NCBI RefSeq assembly: GCF_900182705.1
Contig: NZ_FXTP01000020.1
Span: 1-64,000, forward strand
Direction of reading: 5' to 3'
Length of the DNA: 64,000 bases
From: Gracilimonas mengyeensis
GTDB taxonomy: Bacteria; Bacteroidota; Rhodothermia; Balneolales; Balneolaceae
Shown here: piece after piece, positions 2,592-64,000 of the stretch
Position numbering within the stretch: position 1 is the first letter of the stretch
Layout: each line of letters begins with the position of its first letter
Made by a program: the position numbers and the translations under genes
The notes under the pieces: generated by a model
What the model was told of the DNA's origin: nothing
Seen by the model: only the letters and a program-made list of their open reading frames with translations
Database searches by the model: none

Positions 2592-3647
2592 TTAAATAAT
2601 AAGCATTGCATCACCGAAGGAGAACATTCGGTAATCTTTTTCCTTGGCTTCTTCGTAGGCTTCCATCAGGAAATCGTAACCGGCAAAGGCTGCGCCTAAC
2701 ATCAACAGTGTTGACTCGGGACGATGGAAATTGGTAATCAATGCTTCGGTAATCTTAAATTCGTACGGTGGATAAATAAATTTATCGGTCCAGCCGGTGC
2801 CTGGTTTTGACATCCCACTGGCCATCACGCTTGTTTCGATGGTACGTACCGCGCTAGTACCAATAGCAATTACTTTATTCTTCTTGCTCTTCAGCGCCTT
2901 ATTGATCTTGTCAGAAGTATCTTTGGAAATGAAATAGTTTTCCGAGTCCATGCGATGCTTGGTAAGGTCTTCAACCTCAACATTTCGGAAAGTCCCCCAT
3001 CCAATATGCAAGGTGGTGGGTAAAAACTCTGCACCTTTATCTTCAATTTTTTTAACCAGCTCTGGTGTAAAGTGCATACCAGCTGTTGGAGCAGCAACAG
3101 CGCCACGCTCAGTAGCAAAGATAGTTTGATATCTTTCCTTATCTGCCTCAACCGGTTCTCTTTCGATATACGGAGGAAGCGGCATCATACCCAACTCATC
3201 CAATTTGTCATAAAGCTCCTGATTGGGGCCTTCATATAAAAAGCGGATGGTACGTCCACGAGAGGTCGTGTTATCTACCACCTCAGCCATTAACTCATCG
3301 TCTTCTTCTCCGAAATAAAGCTTGTTACCAATTCTAATCTTACGCGCCGGCTCTACAAGTACATCCCAGAGCATATTTTCAGGCATAAGCTCGCGCAACA
3401 AAAACACCTCAATATCTGCCTCAGTCTTTTCTTTCTTTCCCTTTAAACGAGCAGGAAATACCTTGGTATTGTTATAAATAACCACATCACCTTCATTCAC
3501 ATATTCGTGAATATCAGAAAAGGTTTTGTGTTCGATGGTTTTTTCAGCACGATTCAGCACCATGAGCTTGGCTGAATCTCTTTTTTCCAGCGGTTCTTCG
3601 GGTACGTTTAAATCGTCAATCTCAAATTTAAAATCGGTGAGCTTCAT
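2592..3647 (-). CDS. queA: S-adenosylmethionine:tRNA ribosyltransferase-isomerase
   Basis: Adds the cyclopentenediol (epoxyqueuosine) moiety from SAM to preQ1 at wobble position 34 of GUN tRNAs. The 351 residues cover the whole family. Motifs include YNNTKVFPARLKG near 58-70, AAPTAGMHFTPEL near 184-196, LHIGWGTFRNV near 212-222, and a C-terminal ITNFHRPESTLLML. It heads the run with ispD, ispF and dedA. A DUF3524 enzyme at 30799-31911 could act further down the same modification pathway. Confidence 0.97.
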   Translation of the reverse strand: MKLTDFKFEIDDLNVPEEPLEKRDSAKLMVLNRAEKTIEHKTFSDIHEYVNEGDVVIYNNTKVFPARLKGKKEKTEADIEVFLLRELMPENMLWDVLVEPARKIRIGNKLYFGEEDDELMAEVVDNTTSRGRTIRFLYEGPNQELYDKLDELGMMPLPPYIEREPVEADKERYQTIFATERGAVAAPTAGMHFTPELVKKIEDKGAEFLPTTLHIGWGTFRNVEVEDLTKHRMDSENYFISKDTSDKINKALKSKKNKVIAIGTSAVRTIETSVMASGMSKPGTGWTDKFIYPPYEFKITEALITNFHRPESTLLMLGAAFAGYDFLMEAYEEAKEKDYRMFSFGDAMLII

Positions 3648-48210: not shown

Positions 48211-51200
48211 TTACTCGTGAATCTTGACCACGTAGGTTACGGAACCGGAGGCGCCCGGGGCAAGACTTCCCTGGAAAATCCATTTTATAACTCCCTCTTG
48301 TCCGGAGCCGGGATCTTCAATGGTACAGCCTGTCAAGCTATTTGGGAGGGTATTGCAAGTAGCAGAAGTAAATGAGGTATAGGATGGCGTGTTATCCACT
48401 ATTTCCATGGAGCTAATGGGCTCACTTCCATTATTCGTGTAATCAATGGTGTAGGTCAAGGAGGCGCCCGGCAAAGCCTGTCCTTTGTTTACCTCTTTCA
48501 CAATCACCAGTCCGCCTTCAGTGATGCTCACCCGGACTAAATCCGTTCGCTGCAGTTCTTGCTCAATATCAGGACTCGTATTGTCTAACACGAAGTTCGC
48601 AGTAATAACCGAACTGTTCGAAGCCCCGGTGGATACCCCTTGTGGAACCGTCACTTTCAGCAATAGGCACATGGTTTGATTGGCCGTTACGGCAACTTCC
48701 GTATTTTCGTCCAGTATAGGCTCTCCGCTTTCAACCGAATTATTACAATTAAGATCCCGATACAGTACCACCGGCCAGATTGCATTATCCGGATTGGAAG
48801 TGTTCTCTATTGAGAAAGTCACCTTTCCGGCCGTTCTGGATTCAAAAGTATGCTGGAAGAAGCCTGATGTTCCGGGTTGCAGATTCTTTTCTCCATTAGT
48901 AAGCAAACGGCTCAGCCGTACATTGGCAAACTTCACCCCGGTGTACACTTCTCCCAAAGCATACGTAAAGCTCACTTTGTCTTCGGATAGAGTATACGTC
49001 CCCTGGGTATTGCCGACTTCTCCACCGGTCGTGGTATACTCAGTTCCGCCCTGTTCCAGTATTTCAACAACACTTCCATCGGATATTTCTGAAGCTGAAA
49101 TATATAGCTCAAATGCTCCGCTGCCCTTGCTTTGAACCTCATGTAGTGTAGAGCCACCGGTAGTTGCAGCTTTAACCGTAACTCCTGAAAGCCCGGCTTC
49201 TCCACCATCCTGTTGAGCGTTGTTTGCGGTTCCACCGCTGATGCCGTTATCGTTATAAACGGTTCCTTCTACTTTAGCGCCTCTGAAATCCCCAAAGTTC
49301 ATGGTGTACGGTTGGTTGTTTACCGTAACGGGACGTTTGTTGGGCGTGGTGGAAACATGCTCTTCGGGATCGACAGGCGTAGGTGTACAAACATCCGGTG
49401 TGGGTACACTTTGCCCATAGGCTTCAATCACTTCGTATTCACCATTCAGCACATTGGTAAACTGATACAAACCATCAGAATTGGTGATCACACTCTTACA
49501 GTTATTCAACGCCACATTATAGAGTACCACCGTCACATCCTGTATACCGTTTTCTCCATTTTCGCGAACGCTGTTGTGATTTTCATCCTGATACACATAA
49601 CCGGTAATCGTAACCCCGGTAGGTACAATGCGTTGGTTGGCACTAAACTCAGAAGTGTTATTACTGCCATCGATGGTAATGGCTGTGATGCGGTCGTTGG
49701 TTGCCAGCGTCACAGAATTGGGGATAGTAACCGCTTCATTAAAGGTGCCATCAGAGTTGGTGGTTACACTTCCGATAAATTGCCGTCCCTCGCCATGTGG
49801 TCTGACCAAAGTCCCGTTTTCTTCAATCAATCCCTCATTGTTGCCATCGTTATCGGCTTTGTAGATTTCGATAGTGTAGGTGCCGTTTAGTTTATTGGCA
49901 TTGGTTCCTACAAAACCTTCCACGCGCAAATCAGATCCTTCAACCGTTGCCAGCGTAAACTGCGGATAATCAAGACCGGCATTAGGTTCCACACTGGTTG
50001 ACTGAATATTTCCATCGTTGGAATTCACCCCATCCGCCTGACCTGAACCACTGTAATTGGAAACCACATCCACAGAAAGACCAAAGTTGTTGAGAAAGCT
50101 GTTCTCAGTAATCCGGATGCCCTGAATGGAGCCGCCGTCTGGAAAGCTAAGTTTGATACCCGCACCTAAATTCTGTCCGCCTGAGGAATAATTCGTTCCG
50201 TTATTATTAATTACGTTGGCTTCAATCAAGGAATTTGAAACGCTATGCAGCACACTTATACCCGCAACCGTGTTATGCCGGATGGTGTTATCCCGAATGA
50301 TACTGTTTTGTGATGCACTGCCTGTCTGTCCCAGCTCAATACCACTACCACCGGTAACCGGATCGCTGCTGCTGTTTCCATTTTCGTGAATCAGGTTTTG
50401 CTCAATGGTCCAAGTTCCAATCACCGATAATCCATCGGCCTCTGTATTCTCCTGTGCAGTTTGAAATACCTCGTTTCCAAAGAAAGTCACGCTTGCATTG
50501 GCGTTTTCGGATCTCACCCCATTACCCGTGGTGTAGGCTATAAAGTTTTTCTGAACCAATATAGAAAGTGAAGCAGATCCACTAAAATCAATTCCCTGAC
50601 CTGCCCGTGAGTTTCCACCCGGATTGGTACCATCTGCCCGCAATCCAACAAGGTTATTCTCGATGGTACCGGAAGAGGAATTTTGAACATTGATACCATT
50701 GCTGTTGTTGAACAATGCCAATTCCTTAACAACCACCGCTCCCGATGTATTGATGGTAAAGGCATAGTCGCCCATGTCATTCAGGTTGATCTCCAGCTCT
50801 TTGCGGCTAAAGCTTCCGATGGCACTTTGGGCTGTTCCAACCGCTCCACCAGCCCCCACGGTTCCTCCATTTTCATTGCGAATAACCAAGGGACTGTCTT
50901 TACTGTAAGCAATCCCGCTGATGGTAGTCAGGGGATCCGTTACCGGCGGTAAGGCACTGTTTAAGGTGATGCTCCACCAGTTGGCATTGTTCACCGGTGC
51001 CGCTGGCACAAACCGCATAGTATTAGCCCCACTGATGGCATTAGCATTTTGGATAAACTGTCGCAATCCACCCTGTATCGATCGGCCCGCTGAACCGTCG
51101 TCATCACCATCTCGAGTATTTGTTACTACATTAAAGCTAAATCCAAAATCAATGTCTTCTATTCCCTGATCTGTAACCGTCAGTTTAGCCACATGCTCAG

Positions 51201-54200
51201 CCTGTGCAATATCTGCGCCGGTCGGTGAGGCCGGGATATTATCAGAAACATTGCCCCTGCGACCTCCAAAACAATTCCCTGCTGTAGATGATACCACCGT
51301 GCCGTTATTACCATCTGCACAATAGGCGCCTGCAGGTGCATAGGTCTGCTCCGCCCAGGTACTTCCATTTGTCAATGCGCCAGACCTGGAATCCACTGCC
51401 ACCCAGTAATCCCCACCCTGCCCAATCTGGAAGGTATACTCCCCTTTATTCCCGGTAACTACCGTTTGTTCATATTCGTCATCCGCGCCATCCGGAAGCC
51501 CGTCTCCGCCATCTTTAAACAGATGTACTTTAACATTTTGTAATCCGGTCTGATCACCGGAAGCATCATTGAAAGACAGATCGCCGTCTGCAACACCATT
51601 GCCGGTTTTATCTCTGAATACCGTTCCTTCTGCCTCAATACTAATGCGGACCACCGTCTTGGAGGTATCATTGGCAATGTTGGGATCGAACTGATTGAGT
51701 CCTTTCACATAAGCCATGTTTACCAAAGAATCGGCTTCTACTCCCGAATCAACGGAAGTTCTAAGCGACAAGGTAGCGGAGTTACCTGAATTCAGCGTTC
51801 CAATCGCCCAGGTTTTAGTGAGCTGGTTAAAGGTACCTTGTGTGGGGGTGGCCTGGATCAGGGAAAGCCCGGCGGGCAGTTGCTCACTGATATCCAGTTC
51901 GGTTGCATTCTGCGGACCGTTGTTGGTCACATTTACAGTGAAGTTGATCACCTCATTTTCCAGCGGATTTTCTTCATCCACCGTTTTAGTAACCTGAATA
52001 TCTGCATTCCTGGTATTCACAATAGGATTGTCAAATTCCTGATTCAAACAGCCTCTGAAATCAATATCGACCAGACGTTCACTGTCGTAACCTCCTGTTG
52101 GAATGGATCCGGTGCGCAACTCCAACCTCGAGGTATAGTTAAACGTGATGTATGCCATATGATCGGTATCAAAAGAACCTTGTCCATCTGTAGTGGTGGA
52201 GGAAGCGAAGATAGCGAAAGGCCCTTCGTTGCTAAGCGCTAAGTTTGTTCCAGATTCTATGGTACTGGATTGATTCTGGGAAAAGCCCATGTAATCCCTG
52301 ATCGATTCTCCTCCCGTCTGATAGCCGTCAATATCCAGGCCTGTCATGGAGAAACTTCGTTTTACGGGGATATCTGTTCCGGACTGAACAATCCTGATTT
52401 CCCAATCTATGTATCCGTTGCTGGTACCATTTTGGGTTACAAAAAGCGGACTAAAGTTAGCGGCCTGATCGCCCGCGCTGTTATCATCCAACTCATTCAA
52501 TATGGCATTGTTGATGGCTTTTATCGTTACAAGAGCATCCAGTCCGGAAGCTACATTGGTAAAGCGATAGACGGCATTGACCTGCTCCGGAACGCCCTGT
52601 TCCAGACTATAGGTATCAAAAGAGAAAGTGGGCGGAGCAGTACATGAGAGGTTTGAGTTCGGATCGTTAACAACTATATCGATGGTGGTGGTATTGTTAT
52701 TGGGTACCAAATCCACACCGTCTACTTCCGCAACCGTTGCGGTGTTTGATATGGTCTCGCCCTCTGTACCGGTTTCAACCTCAGCAACAATCTCAAGCGT
52801 AGCAGATTGCAAGCCCTGCAGCGAACCTACTGTCCATTCCCCATTGCTGCTGTTATAGCTACCCTGGCTTGGGGTAGCCGATTTAAACGTCAAATCACTG
52901 GAAAGTACATCTTCTATAACAATGCCGGTGGCAGGTGTAGTTTTAGTGTTTGCGAGGTTGATGGTATAGGTGATGTCCTGCCCCACATCCGGCGTCACGT
53001 CATCCACCTCTTTGGTAACCCCAACATCAACTACGCTTTCCGTGTTTGGATCGTCAAAATCATTGATTTTACAGGGATCGAAACTCACTGAAATAACGCG
53101 ATCGTCCGTGGTACCGTCAGATTTAATACCAGCCCGCAGGTTGAATACCGCCTCGTTCGTGTAAGTGGCATACACCATGTAGTCGGTGTAATTGCTGTAG
53201 GTAGGTTGGGTATCCTGGAAGTTATTCGATTCAAATGTGACGAATGCATTCGCGTAGTCGTTTATCAGGTTCGTTGCTTCCTCTACCGTAAACGAGCTCA
53301 GGTTTTGAAACCCAATCAAATCCTTCAGGCTTCCGGTACCATCAATGTCAGAACCGGTAGCAGCAAAGGACATATAGCGCGGCAGGTTTGTACTATTATC
53401 AAAAAAGGAAATCTTGAAATCTACGTATCCGTCATCACCTCCAATGTTTTCAATGGATGGTGAGAACTCTTCAGGCAGCTGACTCAGGTTGGCATCATCT
53501 ACATTCAACAGTTGAGCATTATTAATCGTAATCACTTCCACTTTGGCATATACCCCGTTCATCACGTTGTTAAACCGATAAACAGCCCCTATCTGGTTGT
53601 TGGAACCACTGATCAAGTTGCCATTTTCGAAAGTAAGCAAAGGCCGGTCGTTACAGGAATTGGGAGCCCCGGGAATCAATACGTCCACCACTGCAGTAGA
53701 GGTGTTATTGTCTGCATTATTATCATTTTGATCGAGCGTGTTTATAGATGCCGTATTAGAAATGCTATTGCCCTGCGTTTCATCATCTACCGTTACGTTA
53801 ATCGCCAGCGAGGCAGAAGCGCCATTTGCAAGTGCCCCGATAGTCCAAATGCCGGTAGACTGATTGTAACTTCCCAGCGTAGCGGTAGCACTTTGGAAAG
53901 TCAGCCCTGAAGGCAACTGGTCAATCAGGCTTAAATTGGTGGCATCCTTTGGCCCGTTGTTCGTCACATAAATGGTATAGGTGATGTATTCGCCTTCCAG
54001 CGGCACGGCATTATCTACCACTTTTTGCACATTGATATCCGCTGTTTCGGGGATGACGGTAATCCCTGTAGTCGCCGTATTGTTGGTCAAATCCGGATCA
54101 CTCTGATCCACAGAAGAAATAGAGGCCTCGTTTTCGATGGTAGATCCCACCGTGCCGCTATTAACCGTGGCCATCAGTTCCAGGGAAACCGTGTCTTCCG

Positions 54201-57200
54201 GTGCCAGGGTTCCTACATTCCAAATACCTGTTCCGCTGTTATAACTGCCCTGTTCTGCATTGGCCGATGTGAAAGTGATGCCTGACGGCAGCTGATCGGT
54301 TACCTGTACACCTGTTGCGCTGAATTCATCCGAGCTGTTGCCCACTTGCAGGGTAAAAGTGATGGTTTCCCCTTCAATAGGCTGCGTATTATTTACCGAC
54401 TTCAACATGACCAAATCCGGCGTAGGTGGCGGGGTGATGGTAACCATATAATCTTCTACCTCACCATCTGAAGCACTTCCGGTAGGATTGGCTACTTCGG
54501 CTGCATTTGTAGCGATACGGAAACGGGCATGCGTAGTACCTGTAACTAAACCTGACAATCCAGTCCAGTTCAACGTTACGCTTCCTGCAGAACAGGTCCC
54601 GGAATCATACTCACCGGCATCAAAAGAACCAGACTGATTGAAATCTACCCAGCCGCCAACCGCTCCGCCACCGGAACAGACCAAGGTGACATCATAGCTG
54701 GGTTGGGCCGTATGCAGTTCCGGCATAGACGAAATCGCATCTTCATCATCACCGGCTCCCAGTCCTGAACTTTCGGTATCATCCCCGGATGATGTTCCAT
54801 TTGGTCTTCCATTTCCATCGGGATCTACATTTCCGCCAAAAAATACCTGGTCGTTCCCATCATTATTCAAAAGGTGGAAAGCTGGAGGCTGTGTTCTGGA
54901 GCTATACTGTGTGGTGTAGGTTGAAGGGGCATCCCCAAAATCAGCCCGAACACCCAGTCCTACATAAATATTATCATTGGCAGTATGCACTTTTCGAAGC
55001 TCAATCCGGTCCATATCGGGATTGCCGATTTTTATCCAGAGCGGAGTGGAGGAAATACTACAGGAAGCATTGCCGGAAACCGTGGGCTGAAATTCCAGTG
55101 TGGTGTTTCCGTTGGTGTATACCAAATTTACGTTGTTGGTACAAAGTCCGCCATCCGTGCCTTGCCCTGTTTGCCAGCCATTTAAAGAAACTTTAGAGCC
55201 CGAATTATCAAAAGCTTCCAGTGTGTAGGAGGTATTTCCACCGTTGGGAGCCAGCCGGTTGAGTGAGAGCAAAATGGCATCTGAAGGCACGCCTGAAGGA
55301 ATATCAATATCGATGGATGTCGTATTACCGGTAGCTCCGCTGGGGTTTAACTGTGGGCCGTTAAACTCATCCCCGGCATACGCTCCTGAAGCCCAGGATT
55401 GCAAAGCGTTGGGAGCAAAGGTGGTGTTGCTTCCGGCCGCAGCGTCCACCGTAGCAATTTCCAATCCCCCTACAAAAGCAGACATAGAAGTTCCGCCAAA
55501 CACTCCGTTAAAACAGGCCCAGGCCACATCCTGTCCGTTGGTGATGGGACACGGATCCGGCCCAAAAGCGGAGTTATTAAAGGTATTATTCGTTACCGGC
55601 TGATTGCTGAAACCTGAGGCATTATTACCGATTTCATCCTGTACAGGATTTGTGCCGGTACTATAATCCACTTCCACAATATCACCACTCACAACAGGCT
55701 GTGAAAGACTTAAGTTAATGCGAGCCCCGATGATAGCTACATTAGTAACCGTTCTCGTATTTCCATTAACCCGAATGGTAAAGTCACCTGAGGCAGGAAT
55801 GGAAGCGGGACTCAGATTCTCATTGTAATCAAGCTGCAGGGTTGAACCGTTTATACTGGCCACATTCAAAACCGGTCCGCTGGCATCTGCAGTTGCTGAA
55901 GCTTCGGCCGACTCCGGACTTTCATTCCCGGATCCATCAATAGCGGTCACCACGTAGTAATAGGTGCCACCGTCGGTGAGGCCGGTATTGGTATAGCTAT
56001 ATCTCGCACTTTCATCATCCCCTACAGTGGCAACCTGCGTATAGGGTCCGCCGGCATTTGAGGCTCGTTGTATTGAATAAGTAGTAACACCCCCCTCGCT
56101 GTCCACATCATCAAAGTTAATCTCAATATCGCCGCCCGCAAGAGCAGTAGCTGTGACGTTAACCGGAGCCCCTGGAATAGTACTGGTATTATTGGTTACG
56201 GTCTGGTTTGTGAGATTCCCTGCATTATTCCCTGCCACATCCTGAATTGGGTTACCTCCTGCCGTATAGCTGACCTCCACATCATCTCCCACTTCGGCCT
56301 CAGGATTGATGGTAAGGTTTACTTTATCCCCACTTATTGAAACGTTCGTAATCGTAACCTCACTGGAATTCACATTTACAGTAAAACTGCTTGCAGAGGG
56401 CACCGAACCGCCATCAAGGCTTTCGTTATAATCAAGCTGCAGGTTGGACCTGTTGACAGTAACCGCCTCAAGTGTTGGGGGTGATTGGTCGGCCGTAGCA
56501 GACACCTCGGCAGATGGCACACTTGTATTGCCTGATCCATCCACGGCTACAACTACATAATAATAGGTTAATCCGTCGGTTACGCCATTATCGGGGAAGA
56601 GGTAAGAGGAACTTTCATCATCGGTAATTGTGGCTACCTCACTGTAAGGCCCGCCCTGCGAGGTTCCGCGACGAATGGAATACAAACTAACTCCGCTGCC
56701 GGTCTCATCCACATCATCAAAAGAAAGTCGAATATCGCCCCCGGCTACTGCCTCGGCTGAAACGTTTTGGGGGGCAGGTGGAGGATTCCCATCCACGGGC
56801 TGCTGATTGCTAACAGTATAGAAAGAAGATGGATTATTTTGGTTATTGAACTCTGTAGCTATCCAGCCTGACGAGAAGGTGGAACTTGCCAACCTAAACT
56901 CGTCGAACTTTGCATCTATGTAATCATCCGCACCGTAATTTGACCTTCCAAAATAGTTTGAGTTTGAATTCTCAATACTATTTGGTGTCAGGGTAACATT
57001 ATTTGCAGTTCCATACAGAGAGCCATTCCGATATACAATCAATGTATTTGCTCCATCATCAAGTACAATAGCCCAATGCACCCATTGACCGATATCAAGA
57101 GTTGAATTGGAAATAATAGCTCCCTGTTCTCCTGAATTTCCATTTCCAGTAATACGCACCCGGGTTTCGGACGGTGAATTCGTACCTACCGAAGGGGTAA

Positions 57201-57912
57201 AGAAAAAGTTAATGTTGGTATTACGGCCAAAATCGAACACCCGTTCCCAGTTGGTATTTGCACGGTCTAATTGTACCCAACCTGAAAAGGTAAAATCCCC
57301 CACGCCGGAAAAAATTCTATTTGGCACCTCCAAATGTTGGCCTGAATTACTGTTTGAAGCTACATTTGATGAATTGTTTAAGTTTCTAGCAGACCCAATT
57401 TTACCATTTCCCAAATTTGAGGTAGACCGGTTCGTTAAATTATTATTGCTGCCGCTCGCATCGCTTACATTATTTTCAAAGTGATAGATCCCAAAATAGT
57501 TACTGTTCCATATAGCATTTGTGGAAGGATTCGTAGTAACCGCCCCATTCCCATAGAACATATAAATATCGGTGTCGGTATTTCCACTCAGGGAAGGAAT
57601 CTGCACCCAGGCAATCAACTCGCCGGTCGATGAATTATAACTTTCTATTTCATGACTGAGGATGGTATTACCGTTTACATCCGCTGCAAAAAGAATATCA
57701 TAGCCGTTTGAACTTTGCACATTATCCCGCAGATCGGTATCTGTGATGCTGATGAGTACCGGAAAATTACTGTGGCTTCCCTGCACCTGCGAAGCTTGTA
57801 TGGATACCTGCTTGTAATACTGATATCCTGCTGGCTGAGCCTGCGCCATGGTTGCAAAAAGCGCCATCACCATTAACAATAACAGACGATATGTAGTGCT
57901 AAACCGGTTCAT
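48211..57912 (-). CDS. Giant exported multidomain surface protein (3233 residues)
   Basis: A 3233-residue secreted protein, probably a cell-surface fibre or adhesin. In order (approximate residues): signal peptide 1-26; DUF2341 ~43-120; LamG/concanavalin-like ~140-345; two FN3 domains (~385-485 and ~595-690), each followed by a SwmB-like Ig domain; a ~200-residue region with FGPDPCPITNGQ; GEVED ~1020-1190; DUF11 repeats alternating with a duplicated ~200-residue Cys-bounded module (~1450-1650 and ~1780-1980); an SdrD-like domain with RDKTGNGVADGD; a right-handed beta-helix opening GGLRQFIQNANAI (~2230-2560); a further SdrD-like domain (GYVYQDENHNSVRENG); and a C-terminal DUF11-like domain. 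There is no LPXTG, and I see no clear type IX sorting domain. The ATG shares a base with the stop of the OmpA-family gene (TAATG). Confidence 0.85.
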   Translation of the reverse strand: MNRFSTTYRLLLLMVMALFATMAQAQPAGYQYYKQVSIQASQVQGSHSNFPVLISITDTDLRDNVQSSNGYDILFAADVNGNTILSHEIESYNSSTGELIAWVQIPSLSGNTDTDIYMFYGNGAVTTNPSTNAIWNSNYFGIYHFENNVSDASGSNNNLTNRSTSNLGNGKIGSARNLNNSSNVASNSNSGQHLEVPNRIFSGVGDFTFSGWVQLDRANTNWERVFDFGRNTNINFFFTPSVGTNSPSETRVRITGNGNSGEQGAIISNSTLDIGQWVHWAIVLDDGANTLIVYRNGSLYGTANNVTLTPNSIENSNSNYFGRSNYGADDYIDAKFDEFRLASSTFSSGWIATEFNNQNNPSSFYTVSNQQPVDGNPPPAPQNVSAEAVAGGDIRLSFDDVDETGSGVSLYSIRRGTSQGGPYSEVATITDDESSSYLFPDNGVTDGLTYYYVVVAVDGSGNTSVPSAEVSATADQSPPTLEAVTVNRSNLQLDYNESLDGGSVPSASSFTVNVNSSEVTITNVSISGDKVNLTINPEAEVGDDVEVSYTAGGNPIQDVAGNNAGNLTNQTVTNNTSTIPGAPVNVTATALAGGDIEINFDDVDSEGGVTTYSIQRASNAGGPYTQVATVGDDESARYSYTNTGLTDGGTYYYVVTAIDGSGNESPESAEASATADASGPVLNVASINGSTLQLDYNENLSPASIPASGDFTIRVNGNTRTVTNVAIIGARINLSLSQPVVSGDIVEVDYSTGTNPVQDEIGNNASGFSNQPVTNNTFNNSAFGPDPCPITNGQDVAWACFNGVFGGTSMSAFVGGLEIATVDAAAGSNTTFAPNALQSWASGAYAGDEFNGPQLNPSGATGNTTSIDIDIPSGVPSDAILLSLNRLAPNGGNTSYTLEAFDNSGSKVSLNGWQTGQGTDGGLCTNNVNLVYTNGNTTLEFQPTVSGNASCSISSTPLWIKIGNPDMDRIELRKVHTANDNIYVGLGVRADFGDAPSTYTTQYSSRTQPPAFHLLNNDGNDQVFFGGNVDPDGNGRPNGTSSGDDTESSGLGAGDDEDAISSMPELHTAQPSYDVTLVCSGGGAVGGWVDFNQSGSFDAGEYDSGTCSAGSVTLNWTGLSGLVTGTTHARFRIATNAAEVANPTGSASDGEVEDYMVTITPPPTPDLVMLKSVNNTQPIEGETITFTLQVGNSSDEFSATGVQVTDQLPSGITFTSANAEQGSYNSGTGIWNVGTLAPEDTVSLELMATVNSGTVGSTIENEASISSVDQSDPDLTNNTATTGITVIPETADINVQKVVDNAVPLEGEYITYTIYVTNNGPKDATNLSLIDQLPSGLTFQSATATLGSYNQSTGIWTIGALANGASASLAINVTVDDETQGNSISNTASINTLDQNDNNADNNTSTAVVDVLIPGAPNSCNDRPLLTFENGNLISGSNNQIGAVYRFNNVMNGVYAKVEVITINNAQLLNVDDANLSQLPEEFSPSIENIGGDDGYVDFKISFFDNSTNLPRYMSFAATGSDIDGTGSLKDLIGFQNLSSFTVEEATNLINDYANAFVTFESNNFQDTQPTYSNYTDYMVYATYTNEAVFNLRAGIKSDGTTDDRVISVSFDPCKINDFDDPNTESVVDVGVTKEVDDVTPDVGQDITYTINLANTKTTPATGIVIEDVLSSDLTFKSATPSQGSYNSSNGEWTVGSLQGLQSATLEIVAEVETGTEGETISNTATVAEVDGVDLVPNNNTTTIDIVVNDPNSNLSCTAPPTFSFDTYSLEQGVPEQVNAVYRFTNVASGLDALVTIKAINNAILNELDDNSAGDQAANFSPLFVTQNGTSNGYIDWEIRIVQSGTDIPVKRSFSMTGLDIDGYQTGGESIRDYMGFSQNQSSTIESGTNLALSNEGPFAIFASSTTTDGQGSFDTDHMAYITFNYTSRLELRTGSIPTGGYDSERLVDIDFRGCLNQEFDNPIVNTRNADIQVTKTVDEENPLENEVINFTVNVTNNGPQNATELDISEQLPAGLSLIQATPTQGTFNQLTKTWAIGTLNSGNSATLSLRTSVDSGVEADSLVNMAYVKGLNQFDPNIANDTSKTVVRISIEAEGTVFRDKTGNGVADGDLSFNDASGDQTGLQNVKVHLFKDGGDGLPDGADDEYEQTVVTGNKGEYTFQIGQGGDYWVAVDSRSGALTNGSTWAEQTYAPAGAYCADGNNGTVVSSTAGNCFGGRRGNVSDNIPASPTGADIAQAEHVAKLTVTDQGIEDIDFGFSFNVVTNTRDGDDDGSAGRSIQGGLRQFIQNANAISGANTMRFVPAAPVNNANWWSITLNSALPPVTDPLTTISGIAYSKDSPLVIRNENGGTVGAGGAVGTAQSAIGSFSRKELEINLNDMGDYAFTINTSGAVVVKELALFNNSNGINVQNSSSGTIENNLVGLRADGTNPGGNSRAGQGIDFSGSASLSILVQKNFIAYTTGNGVRSENANASVTFFGNEVFQTAQENTEADGLSVIGTWTIEQNLIHENGNSSSDPVTGGSGIELGQTGSASQNSIIRDNTIRHNTVAGISVLHSVSNSLIEANVINNNGTNYSSGGQNLGAGIKLSFPDGGSIQGIRITENSFLNNFGLSVDVVSNYSGSGQADGVNSNDGNIQSTSVEPNAGLDYPQFTLATVEGSDLRVEGFVGTNANKLNGTYTIEIYKADNDGNNEGLIEENGTLVRPHGEGRQFIGSVTTNSDGTFNEAVTIPNSVTLATNDRITAITIDGSNNTSEFSANQRIVPTGVTITGYVYQDENHNSVRENGENGIQDVTVVLYNVALNNCKSVITNSDGLYQFTNVLNGEYEVIEAYGQSVPTPDVCTPTPVDPEEHVSTTPNKRPVTVNNQPYTMNFGDFRGAKVEGTVYNDNGISGGTANNAQQDGGEAGLSGVTVKAATTGGSTLHEVQSKGSGAFELYISASEISDGSVVEILEQGGTEYTTTGGEVGNTQGTYTLSEDKVSFTYALGEVYTGVKFANVRLSRLLTNGEKNLQPGTSGFFQHTFESRTAGKVTFSIENTSNPDNAIWPVVLYRDLNCNNSVESGEPILDENTEVAVTANQTMCLLLKVTVPQGVSTGASNSSVITANFVLDNTSPDIEQELQRTDLVRVSITEGGLVIVKEVNKGQALPGASLTYTIDYTNNGSEPISSMEIVDNTPSYTSFTSATCNTLPNSLTGCTIEDPGSGQEGVIKWIFQGSLAPGASGSVTYVVKIHE

Positions 57913-60900
57913 TATTTACTGTCCTCCCCGTTCTTGAAAGCACCATCCAGGTCAACAAGTCGAATATGTTGCATATCCGGGTAAACAAATTGTAGCTGAT
58001 CGACAGGCACATCATCCGAACCATTGGTGTAGGTTCTGCCACTTTCAATGCCCCAATCTGTCAGGAATGTTTGAATGGCTTCGGCGCGAAGTTCTCCTTT
58101 TTCAAGACTGCTGTTGTATTGAATTTGAAGCTTAGCCTTTGGATACTTTTTCATGAATGAGCCAATGCGCGCCAGTACAGCTTTTTGCTCCGGACTCAGT
58201 GTCATCGCCGTAGCGTCAAAATCCATATTCATCGGAAGCGCGTTATTCCGGTCGAAGCCTTCCGTTAGCCGTTCGTCTTTTCTTGATTGCAGAACCTCCA
58301 GTAAGTTGTTCATCATAGCCAGAACGCGGCTATTTTTTTCAAACCGGATATCATCCTGCTGTGCATACACTTCCACGCGCTCAAGATCGCTAAAGCTAAA
58401 GACAGCGGCTGAATCATTTTCACTTTCTGTAACTGCCAGACGATCTTCCTCCACTCCTTCCCTGATCAAATACTCAGCAATGCGGGAAGCGAAAATCGTA
58501 TCCGCAGAAGCAATCTCCATTTCTAAACCTGCATGATCCTCAAGTACCATAGCTATTCGATTTGCCATGTATTCCTGAACCCCATTCAATTCTGGAGAGG
58601 TGATATTGAATGCGGCCGGCACCTGATTATGCCCTGCCATAAATACATAGTCCCAAGTATCCACACCGCGCACCACCGGGTGTACTTGAAGATCCTCTAC
58701 CTGGTCAACCAGTCTTGCACGGAACGGTTCAGGATTGATAGCTAGCTCTACACGGCGGTTTACAGCCATATCCACCTGATCTTTTTCCTGGCGGATTTCC
58801 TGGCTGTAGCTTAGCCCTTCAAACCGGAGTTTATCACCGCTAATACCGGAAGCGATAAGGTAAGAGCGCACTGCCCTCGCTCTTCTTTCGGAGAGATCAA
58901 GGTTATAATCGTAAGAGCTTTTTGAATCGGTATGCCCTGTTATGCGAATCGTATAATCTCCCTCGGATTGAAGGAAAGTAGCCACCATATCAAGCATTTG
59001 TGCGGAACGGGCGGTTATGTAGGTGCTGTCGTTATTAAAGTGAATTTGCTTCGGTAAAAAGTACAGCTGCTCAATTCTCTTGTAATTTGATTCCACCTCA
59101 GCAATGCTCAAACGATAGGGATCAAGTGCCGGGATATGGAACGGCAGAATAGTGAGCTTAGGCCCACACTCTTCTTTACAAATCAGGTAACGGGATTCAT
59201 CCAGAATGTTTTTGCTGCGCTCGGGCGCTAGGCTGCGGAATATTTGCTCGTCAAACTTGTAGCTGAGTCCGGCATACACACCCCGCTGTGTATAATTGTT
59301 TTCTGAGAGATCTTCATCTTCATATCCAAACAAATTGAAACCGGCTGCAAGACGCAGATTTTTAGCCACCAGATAACCGGCTTCAATTCCAACTCCGTAA
59401 TCTTTAATGGTAAAATCACTGTTAGCCAGCAGGCTCGCATTTATGGAAGCGTCCCATCGATCGGTGATGTCGTACATGGTTCGCCCGGAAAGTAACTCCA
59501 GGAAACTGGATGATTTCAAAAACTCATCCTGCTCTACCGATCTTTTGGCAGCCAGCCGGCCCGTGAAGGTCCAGTCTACTACCGGATGATAATTGGCATG
59601 AGAAGAAAATACATGGGCCGACCGGAAATGGTTAGGGGCTATATTTGCGTCTTCCTCATATTTAAATTCATATCGAAACAGGGCATCCAGTTTGTTGCTG
59701 TCAACATCGCGGAAGGCCGTACCTACGCGCAGACGCTGCTGAATTTTGCTAAACCCGGAAACGCCGTCAGTGGCGGTAAGTGCAATGATATTCTTGCCCA
59801 GGAACGTCCAGTCGCGGTTTATTTTGTGTCCGTACCCGAAGCTGTTTAAATAGGTGGTGGATTGTTTTCTGAAACGCGCTTCCAGTTTCGCTGTTCCTTT
59901 CCAGTTGGGGTTGGCCGTATAATCGATAGCTGTTGAAAGCGCTGTTCCATCGTTTGTCGGAGTCCCCTCAACGGTGTAAATACGCTCAAACCCAACATTC
60001 AGTCCCAAGCCTTCTTTAAGCTCAAACTGGTTTCGCACCCCAATGGCAGCCTGACCGGTTCGCCCGTCCAGCGCATCTGCCATTCGGTATTCGCTGTAAA
60101 TCTGGCCGTTGTTCATGTAGTTCACATCCAAACCAACCAGCGTGTTATTTCTTTTTGCACTGCTGCTTAAGGTGTAGCGCCCGCCTGCACTGGAAATGAA
60201 CTCATGCTTGGCATACAGCTTGGCAATATTTCTAAGGCGATAGTCACCGCCAACCGCAATCATTTTCCGGTCGGTATTAGTCATGTCCTGCTCATATTCC
60301 CCATAGGTGGATGCCCCTTCTATAAAAGGAAGATCAGCCGTGATTTTACCTCTTGCGTTGGTGTTCACGATTTCCTCAGATGCAGCTCTGGATTCCTGCG
60401 TATGCCGGATCCCCACTTCGGCATTAATGCTGCTGCCAAGGCTTCGCTGCACATTCAGCACTCCACCCACAACTTCAGCCCCGCTGGTATCATTGCGAGA
60501 ATAAAGGAATTCACCATTAATGTTGGTAGAACCTTCGAAACGGTACCGCCCACGCACCTTAGCTTCGGTGCGTCCCTGCCCAAGGGTGGCCCGTTCATTA
60601 TCGAAGTTCTTCTCTGCTTTACCGACCTGTGCCAAAAGATCTACTTTTTTGCCTCTTTTTTGAAGCTCAATACGTCCGGCATTTCCGTTGCCATTTCTGG
60701 CAGTGTTGGTACGCGCTACCTCAACCAACATCCGGGTATCCTCATTCAGCTCTACGCTCAGGTTACCTGAAGTCAAAGCAAATTCTTCTTCCGGATTGTT
60801 GTCTTTCACATAGCTGGCGCCAGCCACTACTCCATCAACCACTCTAAGTTTTCCATCTACCCCACCGATGAAATAGCGTTCGTCGTCATTTTCTACTTCG

Positions 60901-63900
60901 TAAGTAATGCGAATAAACTGTGGGTTAAATTCTTTATCAACGCTGGAAACCGGTGCCCGGAAAGTGATGGCGCCGTTAAAGGGCTCAATGGCATAATCCC
61001 GGAAACGAGTCAGCCGCTCAACATCGAGGATGACCTCGGGCTGATTTCTGTCATAAGTGACAATTTCTACAATCTCACTGTTTTCAATGATATCCTGGTC
61101 CGGAAGTTCGTAACGGGAAATTCCCTGTCCCCGGAATTCACGAAGGCGATGGGTTGATGCTGAACTCACCCCAAAAGCATTCACTTCGTAATTATCCTGC
61201 TCATAATGTGTTTTGATACCGGTTTGTGAACGGCTGTAATCACCCAACTGTCGATCCTGATCTCGTTCCTGCGTGATGAAATCACCGTACATGGCATAAG
61301 TTTTATTGCGATCTACCCGAATGTAAAGGCGGCTTGAGGACTGTGCATCAAAACCCTTAACCGAAGATTCACCGTAGACCGGGTAAAATTCATCCGGGCG
61401 GATATCACGAAACATTCTGTTTTCTTTGTCTTTCTCAGAATCAAAACCAGCGGTAAGCAAGGTTTTTCCACTCACTTTACCTTTAAGGAAGAAGGAAATT
61501 CTGCCATCGGCCGTAAAGTTGTTCATGTCGTATGACAGCGACTTAAGCTCTCTTTCAAAGCCATCATCAGAAGAAGCAGAACGGATATCCAGAGGATTGC
61601 GCAGACGAACGGTTCCCTCGATAATACCGGCGGCAATTAAAGGTCTCAAATCCGGAATGAAATGTACTTTAGCTTCCCCTTCAAGTACCCCGGCATTGGC
61701 GCGTACCAATACAGTTTTTGGTTCTATTGTTGATTTGAGTTTAAAATCTGTCACCCCGCCCACTACCGAAGTTTGTGTACCTGGTGTTTTGGGTTGATTG
61801 TCTTCTACCTGCCACTCCCCCAAAGAGGCATCCAGGGTAATATCAATTTTTGAACCGATTCTGATTCCTTCCTGATCCAAAACTTCAACCCGCACTACCG
61901 CTGCCGATACACCATCAGCGGATACATGATTTTCAGGCACGGTCACTTTTAGTTTCTTCAATTCACCCGGTGCATAAACGGATACTTCAACCGAATCTCT
62001 GAGGTTTCCGAAAGGATCACGCTCCCTAAGCTGAACCGTATTCTTCCCCTTGTTCAATTCAATACTTACAAATTCCCAAGCCTGCAGGTCCCTGTTTTTG
62101 GCTGCTGATCGCTGACCGATCTTGTCATTTTCGATGATTTCACCATTTACTTTCATCTCAAAGCGGGCGCCCAGCTTTCCTTTTGCCTGAAAAGTAAACT
62201 GCCGGGCATCCAGGGTATCTCCATCCGCCACATTTAAAAAGCCCAAATCAGCACTCGCATTCAAAAGCCCCATTTCCATATTATCCAAAGCCACCACGGT
62301 AGAGTCTTCCGTAATGATACTGGTTGAATCAGGGGAAGCAGTCTTCGCATCAGCAGCTTCCTTGGCAGATTGAATTTTAGGAACCTTAGCGTCGCCCACA
62401 ACGCCGGCTGCCTGTCTGTTGTTGGAAGTTCTTTGTTCTCTCAGGTTGAAATTTTTGGATACATCGTTTAGTACTTCATTGCGTCCTGCTCCGAAAGCTT
62501 CTTTTCGGGTATCAATATTGTTGAGAACTCCTTCGGTACAGTTACACACTGCAAAGTCAGCCCGGTGCATTTCCCCTTTCTTCAAATCCACAAAACGGCT
62601 GGACGGATCATTGGCATGGCGGTTGTCCACGGCCTCCAATTCACTGCCGTCGGGTAAGGAGTAGTTATCAATTTTAAGCACGTGTTTGTTTGGCTTCACC
62701 CCATAGAAGGTATATTTACCGTCCGCATCGGTAATGATGTAATTACCATTCTCGAGATACAATCTTACGCCCGGCACACCAGTTTCATTGGCATCCTGCA
62801 TGCCATCACGGTCACAATCCAGGAATACATTACCAATGATGAGTCCTTCATCACTAAACACACCGCCGGTAACTTCTACCTTAACCTGCGCCTGGTTACT
62901 AACTTTTACGATGGCTTCATCACTTCTTGCTATGGCCACGTTGATACCATTACCTCGTTCTGAGCCCGCACCGATATGCACCTTGTAGATCAACTCCATA
63001 GAAGAGCCCGGATTAATGTCTCCTATTTCAAATTTTAGCTCAGGACCTTTTCCTCCTTCAGGATCTTCTATACTTTCCCCATCCAGCTGGGCCGTTCCTT
63101 TTTCGTATTCAAATCCAAAAGGCAGGTTATCGGTTAAAGTTAGATTATTGACCGTATTTACGGCTTCACTTCGAATGTTGATGGTGTAATACAGGAAATC
63201 ACCGATCTCTGCTTCTTTTTTATTCACCGTTTTTTCCACAAAAAGTACACCGGTGCTTTTTGGATCTACCGGGATATCCACATCTATACCTTTTGGATCC
63301 CCTGTCAGCGAAAATGATTTGCCGTAGGAAGCCAAGCTATCCAGTGAACGGTCTGATGGTAACTGATCGATGCTAAGTTCTGATACAAATGTATACCCCT
63401 CAGGTGGAGCCACTTCTATGCGATATTCTCCGGCTAAAAGATATGGGAACCGGTATTCGCCGCTTTCATTGGTGGTTTGGATATTATCTAAAATTTCTTC
63501 TCCCTGTACATCCCGCACCTGGGCAAGTCCGCCTGCATTTCCACCATTTGTCACCCCATTCACATCAATAATTCGAACTTCTGCGCCTGACACCGGTTCA
63601 TTGGTTTCACTGTCAAAAATAACGCCGTAAGGATCTACCTGTACCATGGCATTGATCACTGCGGAACCACCTTGCCCTGATTGGTTCAAGCCATCACAGG
63701 TAAGTACCGCTTCAAGCTCATCTTTCTCCACCGTTTCCAGTATTTCATTACCTAATACAACGGCAAATTGCGTTGCATCCCGGGTTGGCACTTCCTGATC
63801 AATTCTGAACATTCCGGTATTTGGACCGGTTTCAGTGGCGGTAAATTCCTCGAAATCGCCTGTCATCTTTGATTCAATGGTGATGATCGCCCGTTCAATG

Positions 63901-64000
63901 GTTCCCCTAAGCGTATTACAGGCTGAAGCATTAGCTTGCAAATGCAGGGGCTGCCCGATCGTTGACGTACCCGTGGTTCGATCGAAGTTACTATCGGTAA
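57912..64000 (-). CDS. Giant OmpA-family outer-membrane protein with DUF11, SdrD-like and Ig-like domains (5' end outside window)
   Basis: At least 2028 residues; the frame stays open to the window edge, so the start is not visible. In order from the edge: a prealbumin/carboxypeptidase-like fold (~130-200, EYRFPYLLAGEYRIEV), DUF11 (~225-345, VEKTVNKKEAEIGDFLYYTI), an SdrD-like domain (~365-440, GNVFLDCDRDGMQDANETG), an Ig-like region (~640-800), a long stretch of alternating beta strands likely to form an outer-membrane barrel (~830-1640), then an OmpA/Pal domain with TGHTDSKSSYDYNLDLSERR. Two further degenerate OmpA-like modules follow. It sits directly upstream of, and overlaps, the 3233-residue surface protein gene. 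A peptidoglycan-anchored barrel that displays or secretes the partner is a reasonable guess. Confidence 0.85.
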   Translation of the reverse strand, partial: TDSNFDRTTGTSTIGQPLHLQANASACNTLRGTIERAIITIESKMTGDFEEFTATETGPNTGMFRIDQEVPTRDATQFAVVLGNEILETVEKDELEAVLTCDGLNQSGQGGSAVINAMVQVDPYGVIFDSETNEPVSGAEVRIIDVNGVTNGGNAGGLAQVRDVQGEEILDNIQTTNESGEYRFPYLLAGEYRIEVAPPEGYTFVSELSIDQLPSDRSLDSLASYGKSFSLTGDPKGIDVDIPVDPKSTGVLFVEKTVNKKEAEIGDFLYYTINIRSEAVNTVNNLTLTDNLPFGFEYEKGTAQLDGESIEDPEGGKGPELKFEIGDINPGSSMELIYKVHIGAGSERGNGINVAIARSDEAIVKVSNQAQVKVEVTGGVFSDEGLIIGNVFLDCDRDGMQDANETGVPGVRLYLENGNYIITDADGKYTFYGVKPNKHVLKIDNYSLPDGSELEAVDNRHANDPSSRFVDLKKGEMHRADFAVCNCTEGVLNNIDTRKEAFGAGRNEVLNDVSKNFNLREQRTSNNRQAAGVVGDAKVPKIQSAKEAADAKTASPDSTSIITEDSTVVALDNMEMGLLNASADLGFLNVADGDTLDARQFTFQAKGKLGARFEMKVNGEIIENDKIGQRSAAKNRDLQAWEFVSIELNKGKNTVQLRERDPFGNLRDSVEVSVYAPGELKKLKVTVPENHVSADGVSAAVVRVEVLDQEGIRIGSKIDITLDASLGEWQVEDNQPKTPGTQTSVVGGVTDFKLKSTIEPKTVLVRANAGVLEGEAKVHFIPDLRPLIAAGIIEGTVRLRNPLDIRSASSDDGFERELKSLSYDMNNFTADGRISFFLKGKVSGKTLLTAGFDSEKDKENRMFRDIRPDEFYPVYGESSVKGFDAQSSSRLYIRVDRNKTYAMYGDFITQERDQDRQLGDYSRSQTGIKTHYEQDNYEVNAFGVSSASTHRLREFRGQGISRYELPDQDIIENSEIVEIVTYDRNQPEVILDVERLTRFRDYAIEPFNGAITFRAPVSSVDKEFNPQFIRITYEVENDDERYFIGGVDGKLRVVDGVVAGASYVKDNNPEEEFALTSGNLSVELNEDTRMLVEVARTNTARNGNGNAGRIELQKRGKKVDLLAQVGKAEKNFDNERATLGQGRTEAKVRGRYRFEGSTNINGEFLYSRNDTSGAEVVGGVLNVQRSLGSSINAEVGIRHTQESRAASEEIVNTNARGKITADLPFIEGASTYGEYEQDMTNTDRKMIAVGGDYRLRNIAKLYAKHEFISSAGGRYTLSSSAKRNNTLVGLDVNYMNNGQIYSEYRMADALDGRTGQAAIGVRNQFELKEGLGLNVGFERIYTVEGTPTNDGTALSTAIDYTANPNWKGTAKLEARFRKQSTTYLNSFGYGHKINRDWTFLGKNIIALTATDGVSGFSKIQQRLRVGTAFRDVDSNKLDALFRYEFKYEEDANIAPNHFRSAHVFSSHANYHPVVDWTFTGRLAAKRSVEQDEFLKSSSFLELLSGRTMYDITDRWDASINASLLANSDFTIKDYGVGIEAGYLVAKNLRLAAGFNLFGYEDEDLSENNYTQRGVYAGLSYKFDEQIFRSLAPERSKNILDESRYLICKEECGPKLTILPFHIPALDPYRLSIAEVESNYKRIEQLYFLPKQIHFNNDSTYITARSAQMLDMVATFLQSEGDYTIRITGHTDSKSSYDYNLDLSERRARAVRSYLIASGISGDKLRFEGLSYSQEIRQEKDQVDMAVNRRVELAINPEPFRARLVDQVEDLQVHPVVRGVDTWDYVFMAGHNQVPAAFNITSPELNGVQEYMANRIAMVLEDHAGLEMEIASADTIFASRIAEYLIREGVEEDRLAVTESENDSAAVFSFSDLERVEVYAQQDDIRFEKNSRVLAMMNNLLEVLQSRKDERLTEGFDRNNALPMNMDFDATAMTLSPEQKAVLARIGSFMKKYPKAKLQIQYNSSLEKGELRAEAIQTFLTDWGIESGRTYTNGSDDVPVDQLQFVYPDMQHIRLVDLDGAFKNGEDSK

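Follow-up and report, generated by a model that had tools for sequence, protein, structure and literature searches.

The window, as we call the whole stretch of 64,000 nucleotides of Gracilimonas mengyeensis DNA that was analysed, carries on its minus strand a gene for a giant secreted surface protein and, adjacent to it, a gene for an outer-membrane protein (Table 1). The giant protein begins with a signal-peptide-like N-terminus and has a Pfam architecture of DUF2341, a LamG-type lectin domain, SWM/fn3 repeats, GEVED, DUF11 and SdrD_B. Two open frames on the opposite strand within its gene (48680-49135 and 49213-49890, both on the plus strand) are probably spurious. The two minus-strand genes meet at base 57912 and have the look of an anchor-adhesin pair.

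Midway along the giant protein lie two modules, m1 and m2, and in the direction of the gene (minus strand) m1 precedes m2. An earlier note, made from the letters of the window, had described them as alternating with DUF11 repeats. PF01345 matched all five of the segments tested and confirmed this order, with one DUF11 repeat more than had been described, so that the arrangement reads DUF11-DUF11-m1-DUF11-m2-DUF11.

Table 1. Features of the giant surface protein gene and its neighbour (nucleotide positions are those of the window; residue numbers are those of the giant protein).
Feature	Residues (aa)	Position (nt)	Strand	Basis
Giant secreted surface protein gene, 3233 aa		48211..57912	-	ORF list and Pfam architecture
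Third uncatalogued beta-sandwich domain, with four cysteines, next to GEVED on its upstream side	784-992	54937..55563	-	AF2 pTM 0.78
GEVED domain upstream of m1	1085-1158	54439..54660	-	PF20009 5.7e-13
DUF11 repeat, first before m1	about 1166-1282	54067..54417	-	PF01345 5.4e-31
DUF11 repeat, second before m1	about 1292-1408	53689..54039	-	PF01345 1.5e-35
Module 1 (m1), PAD-like	1420-1614	53071..53655	-	35% identity to m2; profile match 1-201
Cys1420, first residue of m1	1420	53653..53655	-	Position in sequence
D-I-D-G motif of m1, proposed cation/ligand cleft	1522-1525	53338..53349	-	D-x-D kept in 40/41 copies
Cys1614, closing residue of m1; may form a disulfide with Cys1420	1614	53071..53073	-	Position; Cys-pair conservation
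DUF11 repeat between m1 and m2	about 1629-1745	52678..53028	-	PF01345 1.5e-28
Module 2 (m2), PAD-like; sequence modelled	1757-1955	52048..52644	-	AF2 pTM 0.84; VIA Z 15.0 to Sgo0707 N1
Cys1757, first residue of m2	1757	52642..52644	-	Position in sequence
D-I-D-G motif of m2, proposed cation/ligand cleft	1860-1863	52324..52335	-	D-x-D kept in 40/41 copies
Cys1955, closing residue of m2; may form a disulfide with Cys1757	1955	52048..52050	-	Position; Cys-pair conservation
DUF11 repeat after m2	about 1971-2087	51652..52002	-	PF01345 1.2e-31
DUF11 at the C-terminus of the giant protein	about 3135-3231		-	PF01345 match
SdrD_B/DUF11/OmpA outer-membrane protein gene, adjacent upstream, towards the window edge		57912..63941	-	Pfam

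That m1 and m2 are copies of one module of roughly 200 residues, as had been proposed, is borne out by BLASTP (35.3% identity over 201 columns, E 5.6e-30, each copy being about 197 residues long). All matches of m1 to the whole 3233-aa protein besides m2 had an E value of at least 0.046, and the pair scored 289 in local alignment, where 2000 shuffles averaged 37 and never exceeded 66. The shared motifs that the earlier note had named are present in both modules. The cysteines that it had placed at the module boundaries are there as well: each module has exactly two, which are its first and its last residue.

The module family lies outside the curated libraries, in agreement with its original description as a module of unknown family. 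Neither of the two modules and none of 31 family members had a credible match in Pfam or NCBIfam; scanned singly, the 31 members gave scattered single-member matches at E 0.0076 or weaker, all to different unrelated families. A PHROGs scan of m1 and m2 detected no credible family (best E 0.045). Searches of the PDB by sequence reached best E values of 0.23 with m2, 0.1 with a 9-row profile and 0.18 with a 31-row profile, all to unrelated proteins, and the same search with one distant relative alone gave no match. Against plasmids, tblastn returned one match for m2 and one for a relative (L005), each at E 0.6, and against phages it returned none for m2. We found no prior account of the module family among the open-access papers listed on Balneola adhesins, GEVED/DUF11 or the polymer adhesin domain (PAD).

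To the two copies of its own genome, which are the only ones there, a search of Balneolaceae added others: the domain occurs in 17 of 92 genomes of this family, in two copies in 16 of them and in one copy in the remaining genome (G375). A phylum sample had module matches in 23 of 394 genomes (E <= 0.001). The module profile matched 45 of 195 genomes of one Bacteroidota family (f24) and 41 of 199 of another (f29) at E <= 1e-5; the frames that carry the module are mostly 420-490 aa long in f24 and mostly longer in f29, up to 8565 aa. Single copies are widespread in other Bacteroidota, and two copies per open frame are also found outside Balneolaceae, for example in frames of 792 aa (G644) and 8565 aa (G687). 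Some relatives have type IX tails: among seven proteins scanned, Por_Secre_tail scored above the cut-off in two and below it in a third, with CHU_C in a fourth. In some relatives with frames of 426-439 aa, the module is the sole recognised domain besides the secretion tail. A Flavisolibacter relative (L006:5989-6774) has a Cys-rich, zinc-ribbon-like insert with several CxxC within a loop of the module. In the window's own genus the module is present in only one of 10 genomes (G000, compared with G001-G009), yet it is kept in other genera; this patchy distribution may reflect repeated loss or transfer.

A maximum-likelihood tree built from 41 copies places the 15 Balneolaceae m1 sequences in one group (support 93/92) and the 15 m2 sequences in another (100/100). 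The m2 of a species is thus a more distant relative of its m1 than the m1 of other species is, so that the duplication predates the split of these Balneolaceae genera, which have retained both copies. Fixed differences between m1 and m2 are few, at eight positions (in at least 13 of the 15 copies of either group), while 33 positions are common to both groups, including both cysteines, D53, D104, D106, G107, R177, G179 and R190. The tree gave no resolved place to the single-copy G375 protein.

Of the 16 other Balneolaceae genomes that have the domain, 11 regions were examined, and in all 11 a homologue of the OmpA gene at 57912-63941 (46-61% identity) is the next upstream gene, in the same orientation. 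The Pfam scan recognised no sorting tail in the giant protein, and anchoring may proceed via this OmpA partner.

The earlier note did not recognise the fold. An AlphaFold2 model built from m2 and eight relatives (9 sequences) consists of beta structure throughout; it has 16 strands at least 3 residues long and no helix of 4 or more (pLDDT 83.6, pTM 0.84); confidence is lower in the loops, where pLDDT falls below 50 at 56-59 and block means are 61-62 around 51-60 and 151-160. In a Foldseek search of the PDB with this model, the best 13 rows were all Sgo0707 or V domains of the AgI/II family (best E 1.6e-5), and 14 of the 15 rows at E <= 0.001 were of Sgo0707 or AgI/II type, the exception being a GH12 enzyme at rank 14. 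TM-scores to the PADs at this threshold were modest (0.41-0.56 by query), with a large rmsd and gapped alignments. The best 13 entries of the VIA comparison were likewise all PADs, with Z of 10.5 or more, led by Sgo0707 N1 (Z 15.0, 183 residues aligned at 3.4 A), SspB V (12.7), GbpC (12.6), PrgB (12.2) and AgI/II (12.1). Viral structures in BFVD gave only weak matches to the model (TM by query at most 0.36). The predicted structure of m2 matches Gram-positive PADs well above background, and the view of the fold as an unknown one is not supported. A confident match to an existing family was obtained at the level of the fold, to the PADs, and not at the level of sequence.

Published descriptions give PADs an antiparallel beta-sandwich core of 12-16 strands, a conserved cation site in the central ridge, two lobes of variable loops and short helices beside it, and binding of a polymer such as DNA, LTA, glucan or an ECM protein (Jarva 2020; Barringer 2023). 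The predicted m2 model has such a core, with its strands in the PAD arrangement. On this model, a PAD fold for the modules is very probable; for m2 it is well supported, and for m1 it is supported through the 35% identity to m2.

A second sandwich in the same protein shows that a PAD match is not automatic. Of 57 genomes, the 8 with the module are also those in which the third uncatalogued domain of Table 1 is conserved, and the AlphaFold2 model of this domain (3 sequences, pTM 0.78) is a jelly-roll with no clear PDB family. It reaches only Z 8.4 with Sgo0707, level with CBMs (many around 7-8) and with an agarase (8.5). Its place directly upstream of GEVED is where CshA_NR2 sits in other proteins (PMC10952558); given these scores, we do not claim it as a CshA_NR2 equivalent.

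Acidic residues are conserved within the module. D104-x-D106-G107 is present in 40 of 41 copies, and position 117 is Asp or Glu, also in 40 of 41; in 21 further copies, D-x-D is kept in 20 and Glu occupies 117 in all 21. The D-x-D exception in both sets is one and the same gene (G332, rows L033 and L075). We quote 40 of 41 because the 31 of 31 copies with D-x-D-G in alignment A3 is a flattering figure: A3 holds 31 of the 41 copies, and among those left out (eight near-identical rows, L027 and L033) is L033, the sole copy without D-x-D-G. Two L001 rows were entered in A3 as the window's own coordinates, and in the 21-copy set the aligner cut inserted letters.

PADs are described as having a cation site, conserved among them, in their central ridge (PMC7726212). 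In Sgo0707 the pocket comprises Thr220, Asp221, Asp223 and Glu232, and partial density for a metal was seen at the two Asp; Ca2+ raised the melting point by 8 C (54.4 to 62.4 C), and its authors did not claim a true metal site as proven (PMC3656908). By its spacing, the Asp-x-Asp and later Glu of the Sgo0707 cleft resembles D-x-D-G and the following D/E of the module, and D104, D106 and the acid at 117 may accordingly be the equivalents of Asp221, Asp223 and Glu232, a correspondence drawn from spacing and not from superposed residues.

The terminal Cys pair is found in 34 of the 41 copies; six of the other seven have neither cysteine, and L026 has the first and another shortly before its C-terminal end. 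In published PADs, the segments on either side of the domain are thought to form a paired coiled coil (PMC7726212), which makes adjacent termini plausible, and hence also a disulfide that staples together the terminal cysteines of each module.

Taken together, we consider it likely that the giant protein carries, on a stalk of DUF11 repeats, two heads of PAD fold that bind a ligand, probably with the help of a metal. m1 and m2 would be paralogous antiparallel beta-sandwiches, each with a ligand-binding ridge, midway along a secreted fibrous adhesin, and the DUF11 repeats would form the stalk as well as the spacers that keep the two heads apart. The acidic pocket of D-x-D-G and the following D/E would bind a cation, probably Ca2+, within a cleft whose variable rim loops could hold on to a polymer or surface outside the cell. 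Both ends of each head would be tied by its terminal cysteines at the junction with the stalk, and two heads of diverged sequence may provide avidity or two specificities.

The position of the modules could also be explained if they were non-binding stalk units that lengthen or stiffen the fibre, with the head elsewhere (the LamG domain, the third domain or the C-terminal part). They do stand mid-protein among DUF11 repeats, in two copies with Cys-closed ends, and closer to the N-terminus the protein has LamG and another sandwich domain. Still, the relatives of 426-439 aa have no stalk to lengthen, and invariant acidic residues are unexpected in a pure spacer, so that we regard this explanation as unlikely. 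We see no better a chance that the modules have nothing to do with PADs and are jelly-roll CBMs or lectins of the general kind, with the polysaccharide binding that is usual for these. Surface modules that bind glycans are common in Bacteroidota, and the first unrelated entry in the VIA list is CBM27 (Z 7.8), with CBM29 and other CBMs in the same list. Between these and the PADs there is nevertheless a clear gap, with Z of 10.5-15 for PADs against 7.8 or less for CBMs and alignments of about 175-184 residues against 147 or fewer, and Pfam contains no CBM family that matches the modules. The poorest prospect is that the PAD likeness reflects convergence on a common beta-sandwich by a separate family with another surface function, such as binding the neighbouring OmpA protein: the sequences have no detectable relation to known PADs and the OmpA gene is adjacent in all 11 regions, but Z rises to 15 over nearly the whole domain, the acid pattern is like that of Sgo0707, and the Bacteroidota relatives occur in unrelated proteins, the regions of the tail-bearing ones giving no BLASTP match to the window's OmpA protein.

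Ligand-binding heads of PAD fold remain our preferred interpretation, and from it we extend, tentatively, to a broader one. The modules may represent an unrecognised branch of the PAD superfamily that is common in Bacteroidota, is closed by a disulfide and has a D-x-D-G cation site; it would include small proteins with type IX tails, long surface proteins with one such head and, within Balneolaceae, an ancient pair of heads of different specificity on a giant OmpA-linked fibre. With the predicted fold, a blank in the curated libraries turns into an adhesin family open to testing, and PADs, familiar chiefly from streptococci of the mouth and plasmids of enterococci, are extended to more Gram-negatives beyond the CshA_NR2 type. 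D-x-D-G offers a short, specific motif open to mutation, and the small relatives with type IX tails would be convenient for crystallography and binding screens.

Among known systems, the best structural match to m2 is the N1 domain of Sgo0707 (PDB 4igb), an adhesin of Streptococcus gordonii that binds type I collagen (PMC3656908). The two share 12% identity, with no match by sequence. Sgo0707 N1 is about 276 residues long and has extra subdomains and helices, whereas the module has about 197 residues; Sgo0707 is a Gram-positive protein with a cell wall sorting motif, whereas the module is found in Balneolaceae and other Bacteroidota.

The PADs of AgI/II (SspB, SpaP), GbpC and PrgB (PMC7726212) have the same fold as that predicted for m2 (Z 10.5-12.7). 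They differ from the module in sequence, as PF08363 (the GbpC family) matched nothing in the window's own genome at E <= 10 and none of the 31 members at E <= 1, and here the module is doubled in one protein, mid-stalk and Cys-closed. Both modules are strongly acidic (net charge about -17 for m1 and about -15 for m2), which argues against DNA binding of the PrgB kind; this acidity may merely reflect the proteome of the organism.

CshA_NR2 (PF18651) has been assigned to the PAD family by its authors, whose DALI matches of its structure 5l2d were to the same PADs (Z 6.7-8.4), and domains of this type are already published in Gram-negatives, with Bacteroidetes making up 9.2% of 2056 hits (PMC10952558). 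Like the modules of the giant protein, CshA_NR2 is accompanied by GEVED, DUF11 and SdrD_B in surface proteins of several domains. Single tryptophan changes at D365, E367 or M481 abolish its fibronectin binding, so that the cleft residues D365 and E367 are required (PMC10952558). The order is another one, since CshA_NR2 is described as followed by GEVED (PMC10952558) and here GEVED precedes m1. Published PADs and CshA_NR2 are mainly at the tip (PMC7726212, PMC10952558), whereas m1 and m2 are mid-protein. 5l2d was not among the best 50 VIA rows for m2, which excludes nothing. PF18651 had no match in the modules, in the window's own genome at E <= 10 or in the 31 members, and its matches at E <= 0.01 in 2 of 394 genomes of the phylum were in genomes other than that of the window. 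Another Balneolaceae genome (G316) has a true CshA_NR2 (L038), matched by PF18651 and followed by a GEVED-type stretch, in a frame of 3739 aa. Alignment to it with hhalign gave a probability of about 1% or less both for the module and for the third domain (seven of eight rows, the mis-cut L047 being left out), a weak test since L038 is a single sequence. We therefore describe the module as a new PAD variant, set apart from CshA_NR2 by the PF18651 model and not by the published list of members.
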